From Salminus brasiliensis (Eukaryota > Chordata > Actinopteri > Characiformes > Bryconidae), in assembly GCF_030463535.1 (NCBI RefSeq), contig NC_132891.1, positions 7,403,622-7,467,621 on the forward strand: a stretch of DNA of 64,000 nt. The letters run 5' to 3'. Of the stretch, positions 3,001 to 49,900 are shown piece after piece. Position numbers and translations under genes: made by a program. Position 1 is the stretch's first letter. Each line of letters opens with the position of its first letter. The notes below the pieces were generated by a model that did no database searches, was not told the origin of the DNA, and worked only from the letters and a program-made list of their open reading frames with translations.

Positions 3001-5317
3001 AACAACGAGGCGGGGAGAATAGTAAGAGACCCTATAAGTGACTGATAAAACAGCCTACTAATTCAGACTTGCAGGCTATGTTTAAGAAGCTTAAAAATGT
3101 GATATTTCTGATATTTGTTAACTCTAGGCTCACTGCTCAGGTCATGAATCTAAAGATTTTTGATTCGGCTGTTAATCCTAAAACTTTCTGTTCCGTAGCT
3201 ACTATGATTTATTTGGTAATAGCTGGTAAAGACTGAGGCATGGCGAATTATTCTGAACCTGCCAACAGCTCTAACAGACCAACTTCAATTCAGGAAAGCT
3301 TGTTACCCACTTAAAGGCATAGTTTGGTGAAAATTCAACTAAACATGATTCATAACTGACCCCAGATGCAGTCATCTCATCTCTGTCAATGCATGCCCAA
3401 AAAAATCAGTCTGGTTCAGAACAGAGTTTCATGTACATTAGTCTATATAAACAAAACATTCACTTATCTGCAGAGCTGAACGGAGCCCCAGTGCTTAGCT
3501 TAAACATTTAAACAAAGCCTATTCATTTCCCTGTAACTAAACAGTTTGTGTTTATAGATTTCTGAATTAAATACATTATGATTTTGATGTATTTACCAAT
3601 AAAAGAATGCTGACCATTGCAGTGTCAGAACTGTTAGCCTAGCATCTTCTGATGCAAACTAAATAAGATATTAAACATGTCATGGATGATCAACCGCATC
3701 TGGGTTAAGTGATAAATTATGTTAATTAGAATTTTTTTCCCAAGCGGTTCCGTTAAGTTTGTGACTCCATCGGCTTACTCATTAGTGGCTTGGACTTGAA
3801 TTTCTGTAAAACTGCTTTGTAATCTGTTGTAAACAAAAAAAAAGACCTACAGAAATAAAAATAGATTTAATTATTATAATAAAAGACTGACTTGTAACAC
3901 AGACTTGCAAACTCTGTTTAAGACAATGATTAATAACAGGATTTGAATGTTTGCTTAACCCCTTAATGCCCATTTTAATCTTAACTACTAGGAAACTATG
4001 TAATGCCACGGAGTCAGAAGAGTGAGGAATGGAAAGTTGGGTCATGTAGACCTCTTATATCCCTTAAAAAAGGCTTCTTACAAGGTTGCTTTAGTTACGG
4101 CAGTGGTTCTATATATAATATATAGATATATGTTTTGTAATACTGCATCGATTGTCACATAGAAAGATGTGGACTTTTCATTAATTTGATATAAAGAATA
4201 ATGTTAACAATAAATTTGATTGAAAAAAAAAAAAGCCAAATGTTGTCTAAATATTGTAACTCCTGTATGGTGATTTGCGTTGTATCTCCAAGTTCTGATA
4301 CACATTGTATCACTTATTATCCAGTAAATATTTTCAATTATTCTGTAACTGCTATGAAGTTAATATGTAGGCATTCTCAGTCTCAGTGTTAAAGGCCCTT
4401 CACTGATCTAGAAAATATACATAAGGGGATAAGAAAATTAAGATGTTTTGTAATACTGTGTTGATTCTCAATATAGACAATTAATTCATCTAAAAATGTG
4501 CAAAGTTGTAAAATAAAGGATAAATTTAATTTAAAAAAAATGCAATATCACCTTGCTTATAGAATCACAATGTATTGAATCTTAACACAAGTATTGTGAT
4601 AAATTCTGTATCGCCTGATCATGATATGTATTGCATCACTTATTATTCAGTAATTAGCCTAAAGTTAAGTCTTATTATCAAGGAAATAGTCTACATTATT
4701 CTGAAGTTAATATGTAAGTGTTATTCTCTGTGTATATCCAGGGTCCTTCAACCTGAAGGTGTTAAAGGCTTCTCACTGATCTGGGTGAATCTCATTTCTC
4801 TCTTATTTTCTCTGGTTTCCTCCAGACTGTTGCCTCAGAAATGCGCCAGGAGTGTAAGTGTCATGGCATGTCGGGCTCCTGCACTGTGCGCACCTGCTGG
4901 ATGCGGCTGCCCAGCTTCAGAGCGGTCGGGGACGTCCTGAAGGATCGCTTCGACGGAGCCTCCAGAGTGGTGTATGCCAACAAAGGCAGCAACCGGGCAT
5001 CCCACCGGGCTGACCCCCGCCACCTGCAGCCAGAGAATCCAGCACACAAGCTGCCGTCCACCCGAGACCTGGTCTACTTTGAAAAGTCACCCAATTTTTG
5101 CTCCTACAACGGCAAAACGGGCACACTGGGCACATCGGGACGCACCTGCAACAGCTCGTCTCCAGCGCTGGATGGTTGCGAGCTGCTGTGTTGTGGGCGG
5201 GGCTATAAGACTCATATCGAGAAGGTGACGGAGAGATGCCACTGCACTTTCCACTGGTGCTGCCACGTCAGCTGCCTTAACTGCACCAGCACACAGACTC
5301 TACACCAGTGTTTATGA
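1..5317 (+). CDS. wnt1: Wnt1 secreted signalling protein, 5' partial, four exons
   Basis: Coding exons are 1..42 (partial, codons start at base 2), 2115..2368, 2756..3021 and 4826..5317; all introns are GT-AG and phases match. They give 350 residues plus stop, against about 370 in vertebrate Wnt1, so about 20 signal-peptide residues lie left of the window. Wnt1 is a lipid-modified secreted ligand for Frizzled/LRP5/6 that drives beta-catenin signalling, classically at the midbrain-hindbrain boundary and dorsal neural tube. Visible hallmarks are the RQNPGIL and RNRRWNCP blocks in exon 2, the [10 protein letters not shown] block in exon 3, and in exon 4 [10 protein letters not shown], whose serine is the Porcupine palmitoylation site. 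The C-terminal cysteine-rich domain ends HQCL. The residue before CTFHWCC is His, where human has Asn, so that N-glycosylation site is absent. Exon 3 ends ...NEAGRI and exon 4 begins TVASEMRQ. Identification is from family knowledge and is close to certain. Confidence 0.97.
43..2114 (+). other. wnt1 intron 1, no gene seen
   Basis: This is a 2.07 kb intron with donor GTGAGT directly after base 42 and acceptor TTAG at 2111-2114. It is mostly AT-rich. A somewhat GC-richer stretch lies at about 300-700. Short open frames on either strand show no recognisable domain. No simple or interspersed repeat stands out by eye. Confidence 0.6.
4131..4790 (+). repeat. Diverged tandem duplication in wnt1 intron 3
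   Basis: Two neighbouring AT-rich segments, about 4131-4400 and 4443-4770, share ordered blocks. Both begin with ATGTTTTGTAATACTG, both carry a TTGTATCACTTATTATCCAG-like block (around 4303 and 4631), both have a GAAGTTAATATGTA block, and both end near TTAAAGGC...TCACTGATCT. The second copy runs up to the exon 4 acceptor region. It looks like an old local duplication with indels. No coding content is seen in it. Confidence 0.55.
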
Positions 5318-16960: not shown

Positions 16961-17747
16961 TAGGTTACACACATAAACATGAGAATGATCACGAAAAAAG
17001 TCACTGGAAAAAATCATGGCCAAAGAAATCATCACCACATGATCATGGTGGGCCTTCAAGAGGATTTCAAGCTAGCAAGAAAAAGTACCTTGAATGTAAA
17101 TCATCTTCTGCGACCACACGACTGCAGAGATGAAAAACATCTCAGTCTGTTACACCACACGACTCTGACTGACGAGACTGAAAGAGGTGTATGAGTCTGA
17201 GAAGTCCAAACACTCAGGGGTCCAGACACTCTAAAACCGCTGCTTTCCTGTGGATGTGTTTGCTGTGCATAAAGAATGTGGACAGACCACTGGACCACAC
17301 AGAGCAATCAGGCCGATGTCTGTGGCTTCCCCCCTCTCTCCCCATCTCAGCAGTACTCTGCCATGCCGTTTCCCCGGCTCAAGAGCTGTTTTCTTGTCTG
17401 AGTGTGTGTGAAGGTGTGTGTGTGTGTGGACTTGTGGGTGGTGGTATAATTTACACCGCAATATCAGTCCCCTCCCCACGAGCTAAAGGACCACGACCTC
17501 TTGATTTCTCTATTAGTGAGACAGGCTGTTCTCATTTGGCCTGCGATTCACCCAGACTAAATCATTTCCTGCAACTGCAGAACTGAACACGTTAAGATCT
17601 CCTCTGAAGCTCCTCAGTTATTTATACTGTACCTCCCGTTCAGATGACCCCATCTTTACTCTTCACTCTCTTCACCAGAATCTGTTTGGTACATTTGTGT
17701 GGAATATGACACTCTCTGGCCTCCTGGACGTGGATTAGAGCGATGTT

Positions 17748-19566
17748 ATGAGGGAGGACGTTCTAGAACAGTATCAATGAGGGAGGACGTTCTAGAACAG
17801 TGTGAAGGAGAGGGCCTTCTAGAATAGTGTCAATGAGGGAGGACGTTCTAGAACAGTGTCAATGAGGGAGGACGTTCTGGAACAGTGTGAAGGAGAGGGC
17901 ATTCTAGAATAGTGTCAATGAGGGAGGACGTTCTAGAACACTGTGAAGGAGAGGGCCTTCTAGAACAGTGTCAATGAGGGAGGACGTTCTAGAACAGTCT
18001 GAAAGAGAGGGCCTTCTAGAATAGTGTCAATGAGGGAGGACGTTCTAGAACAGTGTCAATGAGGGAGGACGTTCTAGAACAGTGTGAAGGAGAGGGCCTT
18101 CTAGAATAGTGTCAATGAGGGAGGACGTTCTAGAACAGTGTGAAAGAGAGGGCCTTCTAGAACAGTGTCAATAAGGGAAGAAGGTTCTAGAACAGTGTGA
18201 AAGAGAGGGCCTTCTAGAACTGTCAATGAGGGAGAACGTTCTAGAACAGTGTCAATGAGGGAGGACGTTCTAGAACAGTGTGAAGGAGAGGGCATTCTAG
18301 AATAGTGTCAATGAGGGAGGACGTTCTAGAACACTGTGAAGGAGAGGGCCTTCTAGAACAGTGTCAATGAGGGAGGACGTTCTAGTGTAAATAAATGTGT
18401 GAATGAAAGAGCCTTCTAGAAGAGTGCAAATGATGGAACATTTTAGAACAGTGCAGGAAACATTAAACAGGGAACACTGTTCTAGAATGCCCCATCATTA
18501 AGACTGCTCTTCAATGTTTCCTACACAGCACTGTAAATGATATGGCATTCTAGAACAGTGCAAATTAGGGAACATTCTAGAACCATTTCAATGAGAGAGG
18601 ACATTCTAGAACAAAGTGAAAAAGCGTATAAACTGTGTGAATAAGGGACCATTTTAGTGACCAGTGTCAATGAGGGAGGATGCAGAGCAATGTGAAAGAG
18701 AGGGCACGATAGAACAGTGCAAATAAGGGAAGGTTCTCAAAATTTGTGAAGGGGGAGAACACAGTATAGTGGTCCGAACTGAAAGAACATGCTAGAACAG
18801 TGAGAATGAGGGAACATTATAAAACAGACTGAATTTGGAAGCACATTCTTGAATAGTGTGAAATGGGAAGAACATTCTACAGTGGTCTAAACTGAGAGAC
18901 CATTCTAGAACATATTAAAGGGGGAGAACATTCTACAGTGGTCTGAACTGAGAGAACATTCTAGAACAGTTTAAAGGGGAGAACATTCTACAGTGGTCTG
19001 GACTGAGAGAACATTCTAGAACAGTTTGAAGGGGGAAAACATGTTCTAGAACAGTTCAAAGGGAGGAGAACACATTCTAGAACAGTGTGCATGGGGAGAC
19101 ATTGTACAGAGGTCAGAATAGAGAGAAAATTCTAGAACAGTTTGAAGGGGGAGAACATTCTACAGTGGTCTGAACTGAGAGAACATTCTAGAACAGTTTA
19201 AAGGGGGAGAGCATGTTCTAGAATAGTTTGAAGGGGGGAGAAAACATTCCAGAACAGTGTGCATGGGAGAGACATTGTACATTAGTCTGAATTGAGAACC
19301 ATTAAAGGATAAACATTCAAGAACATTGCTACAGTGTTAGCCTAGAGCAGTGTAAAAAGAACATCCGACAAGAGTTAGAAAGTGAGAACGCTGGATGTGA
19401 ATTATGTTCTAGAGCAGTGTGGAGGCTGAGAATGTTCTAGAGAAGTAAGGATGATGAGAACACACTTTATACAACCTTTTATAACAATGTGTGAAAACAT
19501 GCCTCAGCAATGTGACAGTGTGTACAGAGTCAACATTCTAGAACATGAAAAGAGGAGAACGTGTGA
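17748..19566 (+). repeat. Satellite arm A, TTCTAGAA-containing tandem array
   Basis: Tandem units of about 27-29 bp have the form GAGGGAGGACGTTCTAGAAC followed by AGTGTCAAT, alternating with GAAGGAGAGGGCCTTCTAGA types to make a two-unit pattern of about 56 bp. The array is fairly regular to about 18.4 kb and more degenerate after that. Later units read GAGAACATTCTAGAACAGT (for example near 18954, 19010 and 19181). Those three contain a complete GAAnnTTCnnGAA trimer; the early units usually have GGA or GGG in place of the first GAA. No genuine coding frame is seen. Confidence 0.9.
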
Positions 19567-19580
19567 AAGACGGTCTGCTG

Positions 19581-20905
19581 TTCTTCAGTAATAGGCCATA
19601 AGCTTAATGTGAGTGGCTGAAACTAGCAGTGCATGCTAATCTAGTGTGTATCCCTCTCTCTCTCTTTCTTCTCTCTCTCTGTTTGTATGTCACATTAACC
19701 CATTAACCTCTGGGGTACCAGAACCTTCAGTCCATGATCAGTTCAAGACAATGTTTAGAACCGACACACCAAATAAACCAGTGTAAATAAGGGAGACCTA
19801 CTCTAACAGGTCTACCCTATTCACACTGTTCCAGGATGTTCTCCCTATTAACCGCCTTCTAAAAGGTTCTCCCCTTTCACACAGTTCTAGAATCTTCAAC
19901 TCAGTTCCGCTGCCCCCTCTCACTATTCCACAATGTTCCTTAATTCATACACAGTCCATGATCACTTTATATAACAGGGACTTCTGTACGAACTGGTGGG
20001 GCTATTCTTCGGTAATAGGCCATAAGCTTAATGTGAGTGGGTGAAACTAGCAGTGCATGCTAATCTAGTGTGTATCCCTGCGTGTACACGTCACAGCTGT
20101 GGGTGTTTAGATGTTCTATACAGATGTGAGCCCTCTTTTCTGACTATACTGCATTTTGTAAGTACGCACAGGTCATTAACTGCTTTGCTAGCAAGGTCCG
20201 TATATGTCATCCTGAGTCACTTTATCTAGAGCGCTCTGCAGACTCATGAGACGAAGAGCAGGAAAACACATATGAATGATACATTGTCTAAAATGCAACC
20301 CATGGAAAAAAATGTTTAAGACAAAGGGAAACAGCTCTGGGTTTTTTGGTTTTAATTATTGGCTGTGCTTTTACAGCGACAGTCGGCAAGTACTCAACTC
20401 TGACACACGAACGCAGGAATGTTTATTTGCTGCAGTTTAGGAGCGCAGTGGCTTACAGGAACACTGACACATTCCTGTGTCACCATCTCTCTCTCTCTCT
20501 CTCTCTCTCGCTCTCTCTCTGTTTGTATGTCACATTAACCCATTAACCTCTGGGGTACCAGAACCTTTAGTTCATATCACACTGGCATCACAACCATGCT
20601 GTTCAAGACAACGTTTAGAACCGACACACCAAATAAACCAGTGTAAATAGGGGAGATCTCCACGTCCTCCCTTTTCACACTGTTCCAGGATGTTCTCCCC
20701 ATTAACCGCCTTCTCCACCAAAAGGTTCTCCCCTTTCACACAGTTCTAGAATGTCCTAGCTCAGCCCCCTCTCACTATTCTACAATGTTCCTTAATTAAT
20801 ACACAGTCCATGATCAGTTCATATCACACTGACATCACAACCATGCTGTATAAGACAACGTTTAGAACCGATACACCAAATAAACCAGTGTAAACAGGAG
20901 AGACC
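19581..20905 (+). repeat. Duplicated non-satellite spacers inside the satellite region
   Basis: Two spacer types recur. Spacer 1 (AATAGGCCATAAGCTTAATG through CTAATCTAGTGTGTATCCCT) is at 19581-19655 and 20005-20079. Spacer 2 (GTTTGTATGTCACATTAACC through ACCAAATAAACCAGTGTAAA) is at 19681-19800 and 20521-20660, with its second half again at 20806-20905. Between them are fragments of the satellite in arm B orientation. This indicates segmental duplication together with the array. The stretch 20.1-20.45 kb is unique. Confidence 0.8.
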
Positions 20906-21061
20906 TAGAACAGTGTGAATGGGGAGGAGGTTTTAGGGCAATGTGATTGGGAAGAACAATCACTCTACTGCTCGTCATCCTGTTCTACAATGTTTTACAC
21001 ACTTCAGCGCACGTTCTCTCACTTTACACTGCGGCAGAACGCTCTCCTGTGTGCACTGAGA

Positions 21062-22200
21062 ATGCTCTAAAATGTTCTCATAGAATGTTCACCCCTTTAC
21101 ACTGTTCTAAAATGTTCTTTTATTCACGCTGTTCTAGAATGTTCTTTTATTCACGCTGTTCTAGAATGTTCTTTTATTCACGCTGTTCTAGAATGTTCTT
21201 TTATTCACGCTGTTCTAGAATGTTCCTTTATCCACGCTGTTCTAGAATGTTCCTTTATCCACGCTGTTCTAGAATGTTCTTTTATTCATGCTGTTCTAGA
21301 ATGTTCCTTTATCCATGCTGTTCTAGAATGTTCCTTTATCCACGCTGTTCTAGAATGTTCTTTTATTCATGCTGTTCTAGAATGTTCCTTTATCCACACT
21401 GTTCTAGAATGTTCCTTTATCCACGCTGTTCTAAAATGTTCCTTTATCCACGCTGTTCTAGAATTTTCTTTTATTCACGCTGTTTTAGAATGTTCCTTTT
21501 TATTTAAACTGTTCTAGAATGTTCCTTTATCCACTCTGTTCTAGAATGTTCCTTTATCCACGCTGTTCTAGAATGTTCTTTTATTCATGCTGTTCTAGAA
21601 TGTTCCTTTATCCACACTGTTCTAGAATGTTCCTTTATCCACTCTGTTCTAGAATGTTCCTTTATTCACGCTGTTTTAGAATGTTCCTTTTTATTCACGC
21701 AGCTCTAGAATGTTCTTTTATTCACGCTGTTTTAGAATGTTCCTTTTTATTCACGCAGCTCTAGAATGTTCCTTTTTATTCACGCTGTTCTAGAATGTTC
21801 CTTTATTCACGCTGTTTTAGAATGTTCCTTTATTCATACTGTTCTAAAATGTTCTTTTATTCACACTGTTTTAGAATGTTCCTTTTTATTCACGCTGTTC
21901 TAGAATGTTCCTTTATTCACACTGTCCTGGAATGTTTCTTTAGAATGTTTTACTGTCCTAGAACGTTCTCCCTATTAACACTGTTCTAACACGTTCTCCC
22001 TATTAACACTGTTCTAACACGTTCTCCCTATTAACTGTTCTAACATGTTCTCCTCGTTCACACTGTCCTAGAATGTTCCCCTATTAACACTGTTCTAACA
22101 TGTTCTCCTCGTTCACACTGTCCTAGAATGTTCACGCCATTTAATCATGTTCTAAAATATTTTCTCCGTTCACAGTTCTAGAATGTTTCTTCATTCATCC
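21062..22200 (+). repeat. Satellite arm B, 27-bp heat-shock-element-like array
   Basis: From 21131 the unit GTTCTAGAATGTTC plus TTTTATTCACGCT or CTTTATCCACGCT repeats with an exact 27-bp period (starts 21131, 21158, 21185, 21212, 21239, 21266, 21293, 21320, 21347, 21374, 21401 ...). Spacing becomes looser after about 21480. Each perfect unit contains TTC-TA-GAA-TG-TTC. I count about 20 perfect trimers by eye to 21.91 kb. The orientation is opposite to arm A. Because 27 is divisible by 3, one frame stays open for long stretches as a nine-residue repeat; this is not a protein gene. Units after about 21.95 kb read GTTCTAACACGTTCTCCCTA. Confidence 0.92.
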
Positions 22201-22385
22201 TGTGTACAAGTGATAACTATCTAGAACAGTGGATAGAGGGGAGTGATCAAGAACAGTTTTAATGGTGGAGGACATTAAAAGTTAGGTTAAATAAGTGGAT
22301 GGGTGAGAACAAAGGGTGAGAACATAGGGTGAGAACATAGGGTGAGAACATTATAAAACAGGGTCAATGAGGGGAACAATCTAGA
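22200..22385 (+). repeat. Degenerate satellite fringe
   Basis: Fragments return to the arm A orientation (ATCTAGAACAGTGGATAGAG) and include three copies of GGGTGAGAACATA. It marks the right border of the satellite region. Confidence 0.55.
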
Positions 22386-22389
22386 ACAA

Positions 22390-22760
22390 TATAAAATGAA
22401 GAACATCTAAGAGTCTCCCAGCCATCACGCACAGGTAGAACACACCAACCACACTTTGGGCCTAGAGGGTCTCTTGGTGTTTGCTGGGGCGGGTGCGATC
22501 TGGCCTTAAGTGACTTCATTGAATGGCAGCTGAGTGAGTCCGCTACTGCAGCTCCAGGGGGGAGCCGCTGTCCCACCCATTATCCCCTCAGCATCTGGAA
22601 GCCAATCCCAGTAAAGCACACGTTTCTTTTGGCAACTGCATGCTGACTGCAGTGACACAGAGGACAGCCAACCACAGGAGCCCCACATTCCCCCTTCCAT
22701 GCATGCTGAGAGCAGCTTGCATAACCTCGCTCTCCTCCAGCAACACTCACACACACGCGT
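22390..22760. other. Unique GC-richer block, no gene recognised
   Basis: Non-repetitive sequence with blocks such as GAATGGCAGCTGAGTGAGTC and AGCATCTGGAAGCCAATCCC. Short open frames give no known domain. It could be regulatory, but there is no direct evidence. Confidence 0.25.
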
Positions 22761-46932: not shown

Positions 46933-49900
46933 AGAGCAGCTTTTCCACGACCGTGTCCGAGAGATCCTTGTAAGTTGGCCATCCAATTTGCAGAGCTGCT
47001 GTTTACTGGTATCATATGGCTGAGACGTGTAGTTAACGCTTATCCTGTGCCAGGAGGATGCCGAACTGGTTGCCAGTGTTTGTGAAACCTCCCTCAAGTA
47101 ATGTTGCGGTGTTGGTTCAGTTTAAAAATGGCCCAGGCAGAAGTAAACGTAGCAGAAACCCTTCGAGAGAAGAAGTAACGTGGATGTCCACCAGAGTAGA
47201 AACTGAATTGTGTTGCACTTCCCTTTTACGGTCCTTTTGTCCTAAAATAAAAGGCCATAGCTTCAAAGTGAGAGGGCTGAGCTCCAGCAAAGCACACGTC
47301 TGAAGGAAATTGGCCCCCAGAAGGGAAGCCTGGCATGTGAAACTGTGATTTCCTGCCTCACATAGAGGTTTAATTATGATTAGAGTTGAGAATATGCTGA
47401 GCAGATTGAACTGGATACTGGGCCACATCTGCTGTGCATTGATTGATTATTGATTGTGCCTGGTGATGGTAAATAATGTGACGGAAGAAGTGCATAGGGG
47501 TAGGGGTGGTCAATATGACAGTGTTTTATTGTATGGTTTATTGTAATACACATTTTTCTGAGCATAAAAATCACTGTGCGTATGGGATAATAGGTTTTAA
47601 CGATTTAACTATTGTTAAATGTTGTGAAGAGAAAGTCTTTAAATATCATGATGTATAATTTTTACCATATTTCCCAGCCCTAGCCTTAATATCACGTTTT
47701 CTTGTCCCATACCAATACTGGAATCTTGTGCACAGGCCGGTACAGTCACTCTCCATTCTTATTTCTTTTTTAAGAAATACCACTCTTTTAATGGAGCTGT
47801 TTTTAATCGAAGCATTTCACTTAAAATGAGCTTCTAACAGTACAGGCTGTCATGTTTAACATCAACATTAGTATTAACGTTCAACATAAGCAGACATTGG
47901 GAAGGGATCTTTATTACAGATATGAAAAATACTACCTATATTATATGGACGGTTAAATATGTTTACCATGCTCCTCACATCTGTGTGACACTTGAAGGAA
48001 TGGCTGAATACTCTGAGTTTATTTAGCTGTTTATTTATTTGTTCTTCAGTTTAATTAAGCTGAGAGTTTATGTATGTAAATCTCTACAGAAATAATGCTT
48101 ACGTTTTTAGGTTAAACTAGAGTGGGCTGGACACACTCTTCAAACTAAACAAAAAAAAAAGGCTGCTACAAATGGTACTGTTATAGAGATGTTTTGCAAT
48201 AGAGATGAGTATGAGTCTGAAGAACATTTCAAAGGCTCTTCACTTAATGCAAAGGTTATTTATCTGCTCCTGTGTGGCTGTGTTAATGTCTAGCTGCGTA
48301 TCTGTCTGTCTAGCTGCGTATCTAGCTGTTTAGTGATGTATCTATGTATCTAGCTACCTGTCTGTCTATCTAGCTATACATCTGTCTGTCTAGCTGTGTG
48401 TCTAAGTATCTGTCTAGCTGTGTGTCTGTCTATCTAGCGGTGTATCTAGCTATACATCTGTCTATCTAGCTGTGTGTCTAAGTATCTGTCTAGCTGTGTA
48501 TCTGTCTATCTAGCTGCGTATCTAGCTGTTTAGTGATGTATCTATGTATCTAGCTACATGTCTGTCTATCTAGCTATACATCTGTCTATCTAGCTGTGTC
48601 TAAGTATCTGTCTAGCTACCTGTCTGTCTATCTAGCTATACATCTGTCTATCTAGCTGTGTCTAAGTATCTGTCTAGCTGTGTGTCTGTCTATCTAGCGG
48701 TGTATCTAGCTATACATATGTCTATTTAGCTGTGTGTCTAAGTATCTGTCTAGCTGTGTGTCTGTCTATCTAGCGGTGTATCTAGCTATACATATGTCTA
48801 TTTAGCTGTGTGTCTAAGTATCTGTCTAGCTGTGTGTCTGTCTATCTAGCGGTGTATCTAGCTATACATATGTCTATTTAGCTGTGTGTCTAAGTATCTG
48901 TCTAGCTGTGTGTCTGTCTATCTAGCGGTGTATCTAGCTATACATCTGTCTATCTAGCTGTGTGTCTAAGTATCTGTCTAGCTGTGTATCTGTCTATCTA
49001 GCTGCGTATCTAGCTGTTTAGTGATGTATCTATGTATCTAGCTACATGTCTGTCTATCTAGCTATACATCTGTCTATCTAGCTGTGTCTAAGTATCTGTC
49101 TAGCTACCTGTCTGTCTATCTAGCTATACATCTGTCTGTCTAGCTGTGTCTAAGTATCTATCTAGCTGTGTGTCTGTCTATCTAGCGGTGTATCTAGCTA
49201 TACATATGTCTATTTAGCTGTGTGTCTAAGTATCTGTCTAGCTGTGTGTCTGTCTATCTAGCGGTGTATCTAGCTATACATATGTCTATTTAGCTGTGTG
49301 TCTAAGTATCTGTCTAGCTGTGTGTCTGTCTATCTAGCGGTGTATCTAGCTATACATATGTCTATTTAGCTGTGTGTCTAAGTATCTGTCTAGCTGTGTG
49401 TCTGTCTATCTAGCGGTGTATCTAGCTATACATCTGTCTATCTAGCTGTGTGTCTAAGTATCTGTCTAGCTGTGTATCTGTCTATCTAGCTGCGTATCTA
49501 GCTGTTTAGTGATGTATCTATGTATCTAGCTACATGTCTGTCTATCTAGCTATACATCTGTCTATCTAGCTGTGTCTAAGTATCTGTCTAGCTACCTGTC
49601 TGTCTATCTAGCTATACATCTGTCTGTCTAGCTGTGTCTAAGTATCTATCTAGCTGTGTGTCTGTCTATCTAGCGGTGTATCTAGCTATACATATGTCTA
49701 TTTAGCTGTGTGTCTAAGTATCTGTCTAGCTGTGTGTCTGTCTATCTAGCTATGTATCTAGCTACCTGTCTGCCCAGCTAGCTGTTGAAAGACTCATCAA
49801 ACTCCCATGTTGCTCTTACACACATGATTCTTCTAGTCTTTATGGAAATAGAAGTTAAATAACCCTTTTAAATCCCCTTTAGTTTTATTTTACAACCATG

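Follow-up and report, generated by a model that had tools for sequence, protein, structure and literature searches.

Introduction

In Caenorhabditis, 9 of 27 species are reported to carry at least ten 1-kb windows with more than 10 heat-shock elements (HSEs) each, and in several species one window holds more than 50 (PMC6927752). The HSEs of Caenorhabditis Helitrons are bound by HSF-1, and Helitron1_CE RNA increases on heat shock in an HSF-1-dependent manner (PMC6927752; PMC6765114). According to the same survey, the other animals examined, which were species with annotated Helitrons, contain no high-density HSE clusters (PMC6927752). Human satellite III, a pericentric repeat, is bound by HSF1, and its putative HSEs are cited as an unpublished observation (PMC9032817). 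In Pristionchus pacificus, the motif Mo34 (GAACATTCTAGAAG) is listed with 1449 occurrences, only in satellites with a unit of 39 bases, and the term "heat shock" does not occur in the main text of that article (PMC3634726). Inverted tandem arrays are known as well from the Drosophila virilis element Tetris, in which arms of tandem repeats enclose a middle region without apparent coding capacity and which gave rise to satellite arrays (PMC4079207).

This article describes a cluster of short tandem repeats rich in HSEs, found in a stretch of 64,000 nucleotides (the window) of the fish Salminus brasiliensis. It is interpreted, with a probability of roughly 0.62, as a locally amplified, inverted minisatellite that carries bindable HSEs as passengers. 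As in the Caenorhabditis Helitrons portrayed in PMC6927752, dense clusters of HSEs occur within repetitive DNA; those elements are dispersed rolling-circle transposons, whereas here there is a single local cluster with inverted arms and predicted HSF1 sites. Human satellite III differs in that its transcription on heat shock has been demonstrated (PMC9032817). An earlier sequence-only reading of the locus had invoked satellite III as a parallel; both are satellite DNA, with HSEs that are putative in satellite III, but the parallel is loose, that repeat being pericentric and the present one an intergenic cluster of 4.7 kb. The search pattern printed in PMC6927752, NGAANNTCCNNGGAN, has 0 matches in the window against 28 of the standard trimer, so that the pattern in its printed form would have missed this locus. 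Among the matches listed from open-licence papers, no report of the repeat unit or of a heat-shock satellite in fish was found.

Organization of the Repeat Cluster

The cluster extends over 4.7 kb, from about 17748 to about 22410 of the window, and is built of units of roughly 28 bp; the HSE-rich array (R1, below) is one patch of it. Units were anchored by allowing at most 4 mismatches to the 11-nt core and requiring at least 14 of 25 letters in agreement with the consensus and centers at least 15 bp apart. Under this one greedy rule, 115 units were placed between 17.7 and 22.45 kb. Orientation divides them into three groups: the left part lies on the minus strand (54 of 56 units) and the right part for the most part on the plus strand (52 of 55), and the final 200 bp return to minus (4 of 4). 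HSF1 sites were predicted with the human HSF1 matrix as printed in PMC9148306, taking as threshold the score of 9 given there; 50 predicted sites lie within the cluster and 0 in the other 59,249 bp of the window.

The left arm begins with L1 (17748-18385, minus strand), a homogenized patch also reported by TRF, in which 23 units were anchored, all 23 minus, at a spacing of 27 or 29 bp. The third HSE module is broken in most of them (variants GAACGTCC, GAAGGCCC and GAATGCCC): the perfect trimer is present in 2/23 and TTCnnGAA in 22/23. The matrix is more tolerant: 13 of the 23 in-register sites score at least 9, so that L1, too, retains possible HSF1 sites. It is followed by L2 (18386-19560, minus strand), a diverged segment with 31 of 33 units in the minus orientation, perfect trimers in 5/33 and matrix sites in 8/33, in which higher-order repeats of 56, 111 and 172 bp occur within 18745-19281.

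The middle region M (19561-20590) is assigned to no strand and includes 7 weakly anchored units, 6 plus and 1 minus, with a perfect trimer in 1/7 and matrix sites in 3/7. No Pfam match was obtained for the two ORFs scanned there. Two segments 424 bp apart, 19577-19655 and 20001-20079, are duplicates of each other, and a second offset of 840-860 bp relates pieces of 19671-19984 to pieces of 20511-20836. Over 19577-20906, inter-arm segments are duplicated in direct orientation, three pairs being 89-97% alike, and one duplicated family of this interval is 65% and 92% alike when compared without gaps.

The right part opens with R0 (20591-21100, plus strand), consisting of 8 diverged units (6 plus, 2 minus) with the perfect trimer in 0/8 and matrix sites in 2/8. 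Next is R1 (21101-21950, plus strand), with 31 units of 27 bp, some of 29 bp, all 31 plus; it holds 20 copies of the perfect trimer TTCnnGAAnnTTC and matrix sites in 23/31 units. In R2 (21951-22200, plus strand) there are 9 units of about 28 bp, 9/9 plus, with neither perfect trimers (0/9) nor matrix sites (0/9); these units carry TTCTAACA (4/9), TCCTAGAA (3/9), TTCTAAAA (1/9) or TTCTAGAA with a broken third module (1/9). The right edge, R3 (22201 to about 22410-22450, minus strand), comprises 4 diverged units, 4/4 minus, with the perfect trimer in 0/4 and a matrix site in 1/4. At 22301-22351 a 13-bp tandem repeat of GGGTGAGAACATA (3.9 copies, 97%) is found, which may have arisen by local re-expansion of a portion of the cluster unit.

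A search of the window outside the cluster with the unit profile gave no match scoring 12 or more and two at 10-11; among three Markov shuffles of this remainder, one gave three matches of at least 10 (two of them at least 12) and two gave none. Tandem arrays are prone to mis-assembly, and the earlier reading had allowed that the array might be an artefact of this kind. The units differ from one another, and diverged members of the family flank the array to the left and right, which makes an artefact extremely improbable. As to restriction sites, 65 of the window's 73 TCTAGA (XbaI) hexamers fall in 17748-22410, so that a digest would yield largely near-unit fragments from L1 and R1.

Heat-Shock Elements of the Array

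Array R1 carries the canonical three-module HSE, made up of alternating GAA/TTC modules two bases apart. As the sequence-only reading had estimated by eye, about 20 perfect HSF1 trimers are present: TTCnnGAAnnTTC occurs exactly 20 times in 21062-22200, on the plus strand throughout, against a mean of 0.015 and a largest count of 2 in 200 dinucleotide shuffles of this interval, and the whole window holds 28 perfect trimers for 0.88 expected. Nineteen of the 20 sites read TTCTAGAATGTTC and 1/20 reads TTCTAGAATTTTC. The matrix scan against shuffled sequence suggested there as a check points the same way, with 23 predicted HSF1 sites in 21062-22200 for a mean of 0.06 and a largest count of 1 in 100 Markov shuffles. 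The consensus of the array likewise scores high with the human matrix, 12.8 of a possible maximum of 14.55.

The repeat is reported by TRF at 21102-22133 with period 27, 37.6 copies and 86% matches. Unit starts are spaced by exactly 27 bp over 21102-21480 and by 27 or 29 bp thereafter, in keeping with the exact and then looser spacing that had been noted. The extent given for the array, 21062-22200, stands only in part: 21102-21950 is trimer-rich, and 21951-22200 belongs to the other sub-type, R2, which has no perfect trimer. Within 21101-21950 the perfect trimer is retained in 20 of the 31 anchored units; recurrent variants have TTT for TTC (5/31) or AAA for GAA (3/31). A block duplication lies inside R1, 21199-21391 and 21498-21690 being 95% alike.

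The shuffle figures do not count independent events, because a single unit, copied, accounts for all 20 sites. Enrichment based on copies is inflated by common descent, and the only event to be counted is the presence of the trimer in one 27-bp unit. Among random 27-bp units of the same base composition this was the case in 116 of 400,000, a figure that does not yet allow for the choice among many motifs, and among letter shuffles of the real unit in 89 of 200,000. Exact trimers and high matrix scores together give good support to the prediction that HSF1 could bind the array.

The first 13 of the 14 letters of Mo34, the motif from Pristionchus satellites given in PMC3634726, equal the core of array R1 on the minus strand. 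This 13-mer is present in 23 copies (either strand) in the cluster and 0 elsewhere in the window. The full 14-mer GAACATTCTAGAAG and ten other motifs tried from the same article are absent from the window, and the Pristionchus satellite as reported there belongs to another phylum and has a different unit length and other flanking letters. The presence of the same perfect HSE in two unrelated satellites may be a coincidence, since the Pristionchus satellite was found by searching for that very 13-mer.

Genomic Context

A Pfam scan of 9 proteins, of which 7 had matches and 2 had none, located Wnt exons at 2.0-5.3 kb, an exon of ribosomal S26e beginning near 25.8 kb, fingers of the C2H2 type at 32-34 kb and, at 42-43 kb, a TM2 protein. 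The Wnt gene is presumably wnt1 rather than another Wnt. To call the array "downstream of wnt1" was loose wording, as about 15.8 kb separate it from the end of the last Wnt exon near 5317. Rfam (gathering thresholds) and a tRNA scan found nothing in the whole window. An exact-pattern scan of viral and prokaryotic contig collections gave 0 matches, a result expected there that says little.

It is very improbable that the cluster regulates wnt1 or rps26, with the repeats serving as sites for HSF1 or another factor. The cluster does sit between the Wnt and S26e genes and contains 50 TGTTCT and 52 AGAACA hexamers; the distance to the last Wnt exon and the count of 0 in the cluster for the full palindromic steroid-receptor element AGAACAnnnTGTTCT argue against such a role. 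A steroid-receptor interpretation of the unit was discarded on this count, the element occurring once in the rest of the window, as was an interpretation as TTCnnnGAA, with 0 occurrences in the cluster and 14 elsewhere in the window.

Another tandem array of the window, with TCTAGCTGTGTATCTGTCTA-like units that are not evidently related to the HSE unit, covers 1.4 kb at 48289-49764. In 48367-49764 it shows a higher-order period of 488 bp (2.9 copies) with 99% matches, a degree of identity that suggests very recent expansion.

Sequence Constraint on the HSE

Constraint was assessed on the 61 diverged units outside L1 and R1. Across these units the nine positions contacted by HSF agree with the consensus at 0.787 and the four spacer positions at 0.832, so the HSE positions are not better kept than the rest of the site, and the G of GAA is kept at only 0.67. 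The direction is the same in R1 (0.957 for contact and 0.984 for spacer positions), where the units differ too little to tell neutrality from constraint. It is reversed in L1 (0.937 vs. 0.880), which is unremarkable, 31.5% of relabelings doing as well. The perfect trimer persists in 6 of the 61 diverged units, for 6.7 (sd 2.0) by column shuffling. When 9 of these 13 columns are picked in each of the 715 possible ways, 5.5% of the sets are intact in no more than 6 units.

Because the HSF1 matrix as printed in PMC9148306 disfavors T before GAA, the spacer makes an imperfect control, and nulls based on the matrix were added. The diverged units have a mean matrix score of 3.46, and 14 of the 61 score at least 9; the ancestral-like consensus itself carries a high-scoring HSE (12.37). 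In the in-block null, the substitutions of each unit were re-dealt inside the 15-nt site (2000 nulls). With uniform substitution, the null mean was 2.16 (sd 0.60) and 2.15% of nulls reached the observed score, which leans toward constraint; 12.2 sites of at least 9 were expected for the 14 observed, a number reached by 29.7% of nulls. With a transition fraction of 0.50 the null mean rose to 2.94 and 18.7% of nulls reached the observed score; with 0.58, the fraction observed in the site, the values were 3.32 and 42.1%, and with 0.60 they were 3.42 and 47.7%. Of five in-block runs, then, the uniform one leans toward constraint and the other four do not. A null over 25 positions (mean 0.25; 0 of 2000 reached the observed score) was set aside as confounded by anchoring: it is biased because units were chosen by their match to the core. 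The lean toward constraint is at most weak and is gone under realistic substitution, and there is no convincing sign of HSF-specific constraint across the diverged units.

These results bear on the proposal, made in the sequence-only reading, of an HSF1-recruiting satellite. Its binding part is plausible, given the exact trimers and a consensus at 12.8 of 14.55. In its functional sense, in which the satellite would be bound on heat shock, transcribed or used as a sink and kept for that role, the proposal is unlikely. The 20 perfect trimers, the 50 predicted matrix sites of the cluster, the one null run that leans toward constraint and the precedents of Caenorhabditis Helitrons and human satellite III speak in its favor, but the perfect trimer is mostly gone from the other amplified patches (2/23 units in L1, 0/9 in R2), elsewhere it decays at the rate of independent columns, and contact positions are less well kept than spacers. 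The rate at which older copies lose their sites is about that expected of drift, so that heat-shock binding is plausible and a heat-shock purpose unproven.

Origin and Growth of the Cluster

Minisatellites are locally homogenized tandem arrays whose units measure roughly 10-60 bp, and they usually grow by slippage or unequal exchange. The cluster agrees with this description in its TRF rows and in the similarity of units within patches. In 4 of 9 segments (L1, L2b, R1 and R2) the best scores of the units are with members of the same segment, as expected of local homogenization; within-segment scores are 20.3 in L1 and 22.4 in R1, for 12.1 between L1 and R1, and distinct variants dominate distinct patches. 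In the five diverged segments of the nine, own-segment similarity was not seen. The main change of orientation needs, in addition, an inversion or a foldback origin.

A rather doubtful source is a transposon of the foldback type, or another DNA transposon with inverted repeats, that has decayed; its arms of short sub-repeats would have enclosed a non-coding middle, and part of it would later have expanded again as a satellite. It would explain why a minus left arm and a plus right arm, both long, flank a middle without a recognized gene. Tetris, as described in PMC4079207, offers a precedent with its long inverted arms of tandem repeats, non-coding middle and role as a seed of satellite arrays; its units of about 220 bp, target-site duplications of 8-10 bp and several copies are features not seen at the cluster. 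A comparison of the flanks 17650-17760 and 22195-22470 for target-site duplications gave two direct repeats of 7 and none of 8 or more, and the flanks share no inverted match of at least 9. In a young foldback element the arms are expected in mirror order. By best match the arm sub-types are not so arranged (rho 0.12, where mirror order predicts a negative value), and a mean-score measure is weakly mirror-like, at -0.13 to -0.19 for centers at 19700-20100 and -0.015 at 20300. Orientation flips again in the last 200 bp, the other 59 kb of the window contain no second copy, and no Pfam transposase was detected in the 7 ORFs scanned of the 11 of at least 75 aa in the area. Helitrons are recognized by a Rep/helicase gene, TC/CTRR ends and a 3' hairpin; the same 7 of 11 ORFs gave no Helitron match in Pfam. 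A sub-threshold match to NqrM, a bacterial family (17.1 bits for a cut-off of 22), was taken as chance.

Folded as a single strand, 17748-22200 reaches -1748 kcal/mol, compared with -1210, -1272 and -1226 kcal/mol for three Markov controls and -1211 kcal/mol for a neighboring stretch of equal length; of its 1621 predicted pairs, 953 join the arms. The arms could thus, according to the folding model, pair as a long hairpin, a property compatible with a foldback ancestor; such folding is expected of any two inverted arrays of one unit and is not evidence of function. In C. elegans, heat-induced dsRNA foci overlap HSF-1 granules (PMC6453478), which by analogy only would suit an inverted HSE array. 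A scenario in which HSF binding favors the birth or persistence of arrays, so that HSE-perfect satellites recur, as in Caenorhabditis Helitrons, the 39-bp Pristionchus satellite and this vertebrate cluster, the present one acting as a 4.7-kb platform of about 50 HSF1 sites from which heat-induced read-through of the inverted arms would produce long dsRNA, is distinctly unlikely.

The inverted minisatellite with passenger HSEs would have formed as follows. Units of about 28 bp multiplied locally at about 17.75-22.41 kb, probably by slippage or unequal exchange, and a main inversion would have set the left arm opposite to the right arm. The center of the unit, the palindrome TTCTAGAA, makes a perfect three-module HSE together with the adjoining bases. 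Amplification was seemingly indifferent to the HSE: R1 would have amplified units that carry it, and L1 and R2 units mostly without the perfect form. R1 is the most homogenized patch and presumably relatively young. Occupancy of intact sites by HSF1 in open chromatin would then be a passenger property of the cluster and not the reason for its existence. Against this account speak the uniform null run, the high-scoring HSE in the ancestral-like consensus and the striking contrast between 50 predicted sites in the cluster and 0 outside it.

Implications

Dense HSE clusters have been described so far, in PMC6927752, as a peculiarity of Caenorhabditis Helitrons. The finding of 20 perfect trimers in 1.1 kb beside a Wnt and an S26e gene indicates that an ordinary-looking minisatellite can also yield an HSE cluster. 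A re-scan of vertebrate 1-kb bins for GAAnnTTCnnGAA would gauge how rare such clusters are, and the 13-mer common to this array and the nematode satellite raises the question of whether such units recur by chance or through HSF. In S. brasiliensis an HSE minisatellite arose without clear evidence that HSF binding was selected for, and it provides a natural test of whether ready-made HSF1 sites are bound, transcribed or silenced without obvious selection.
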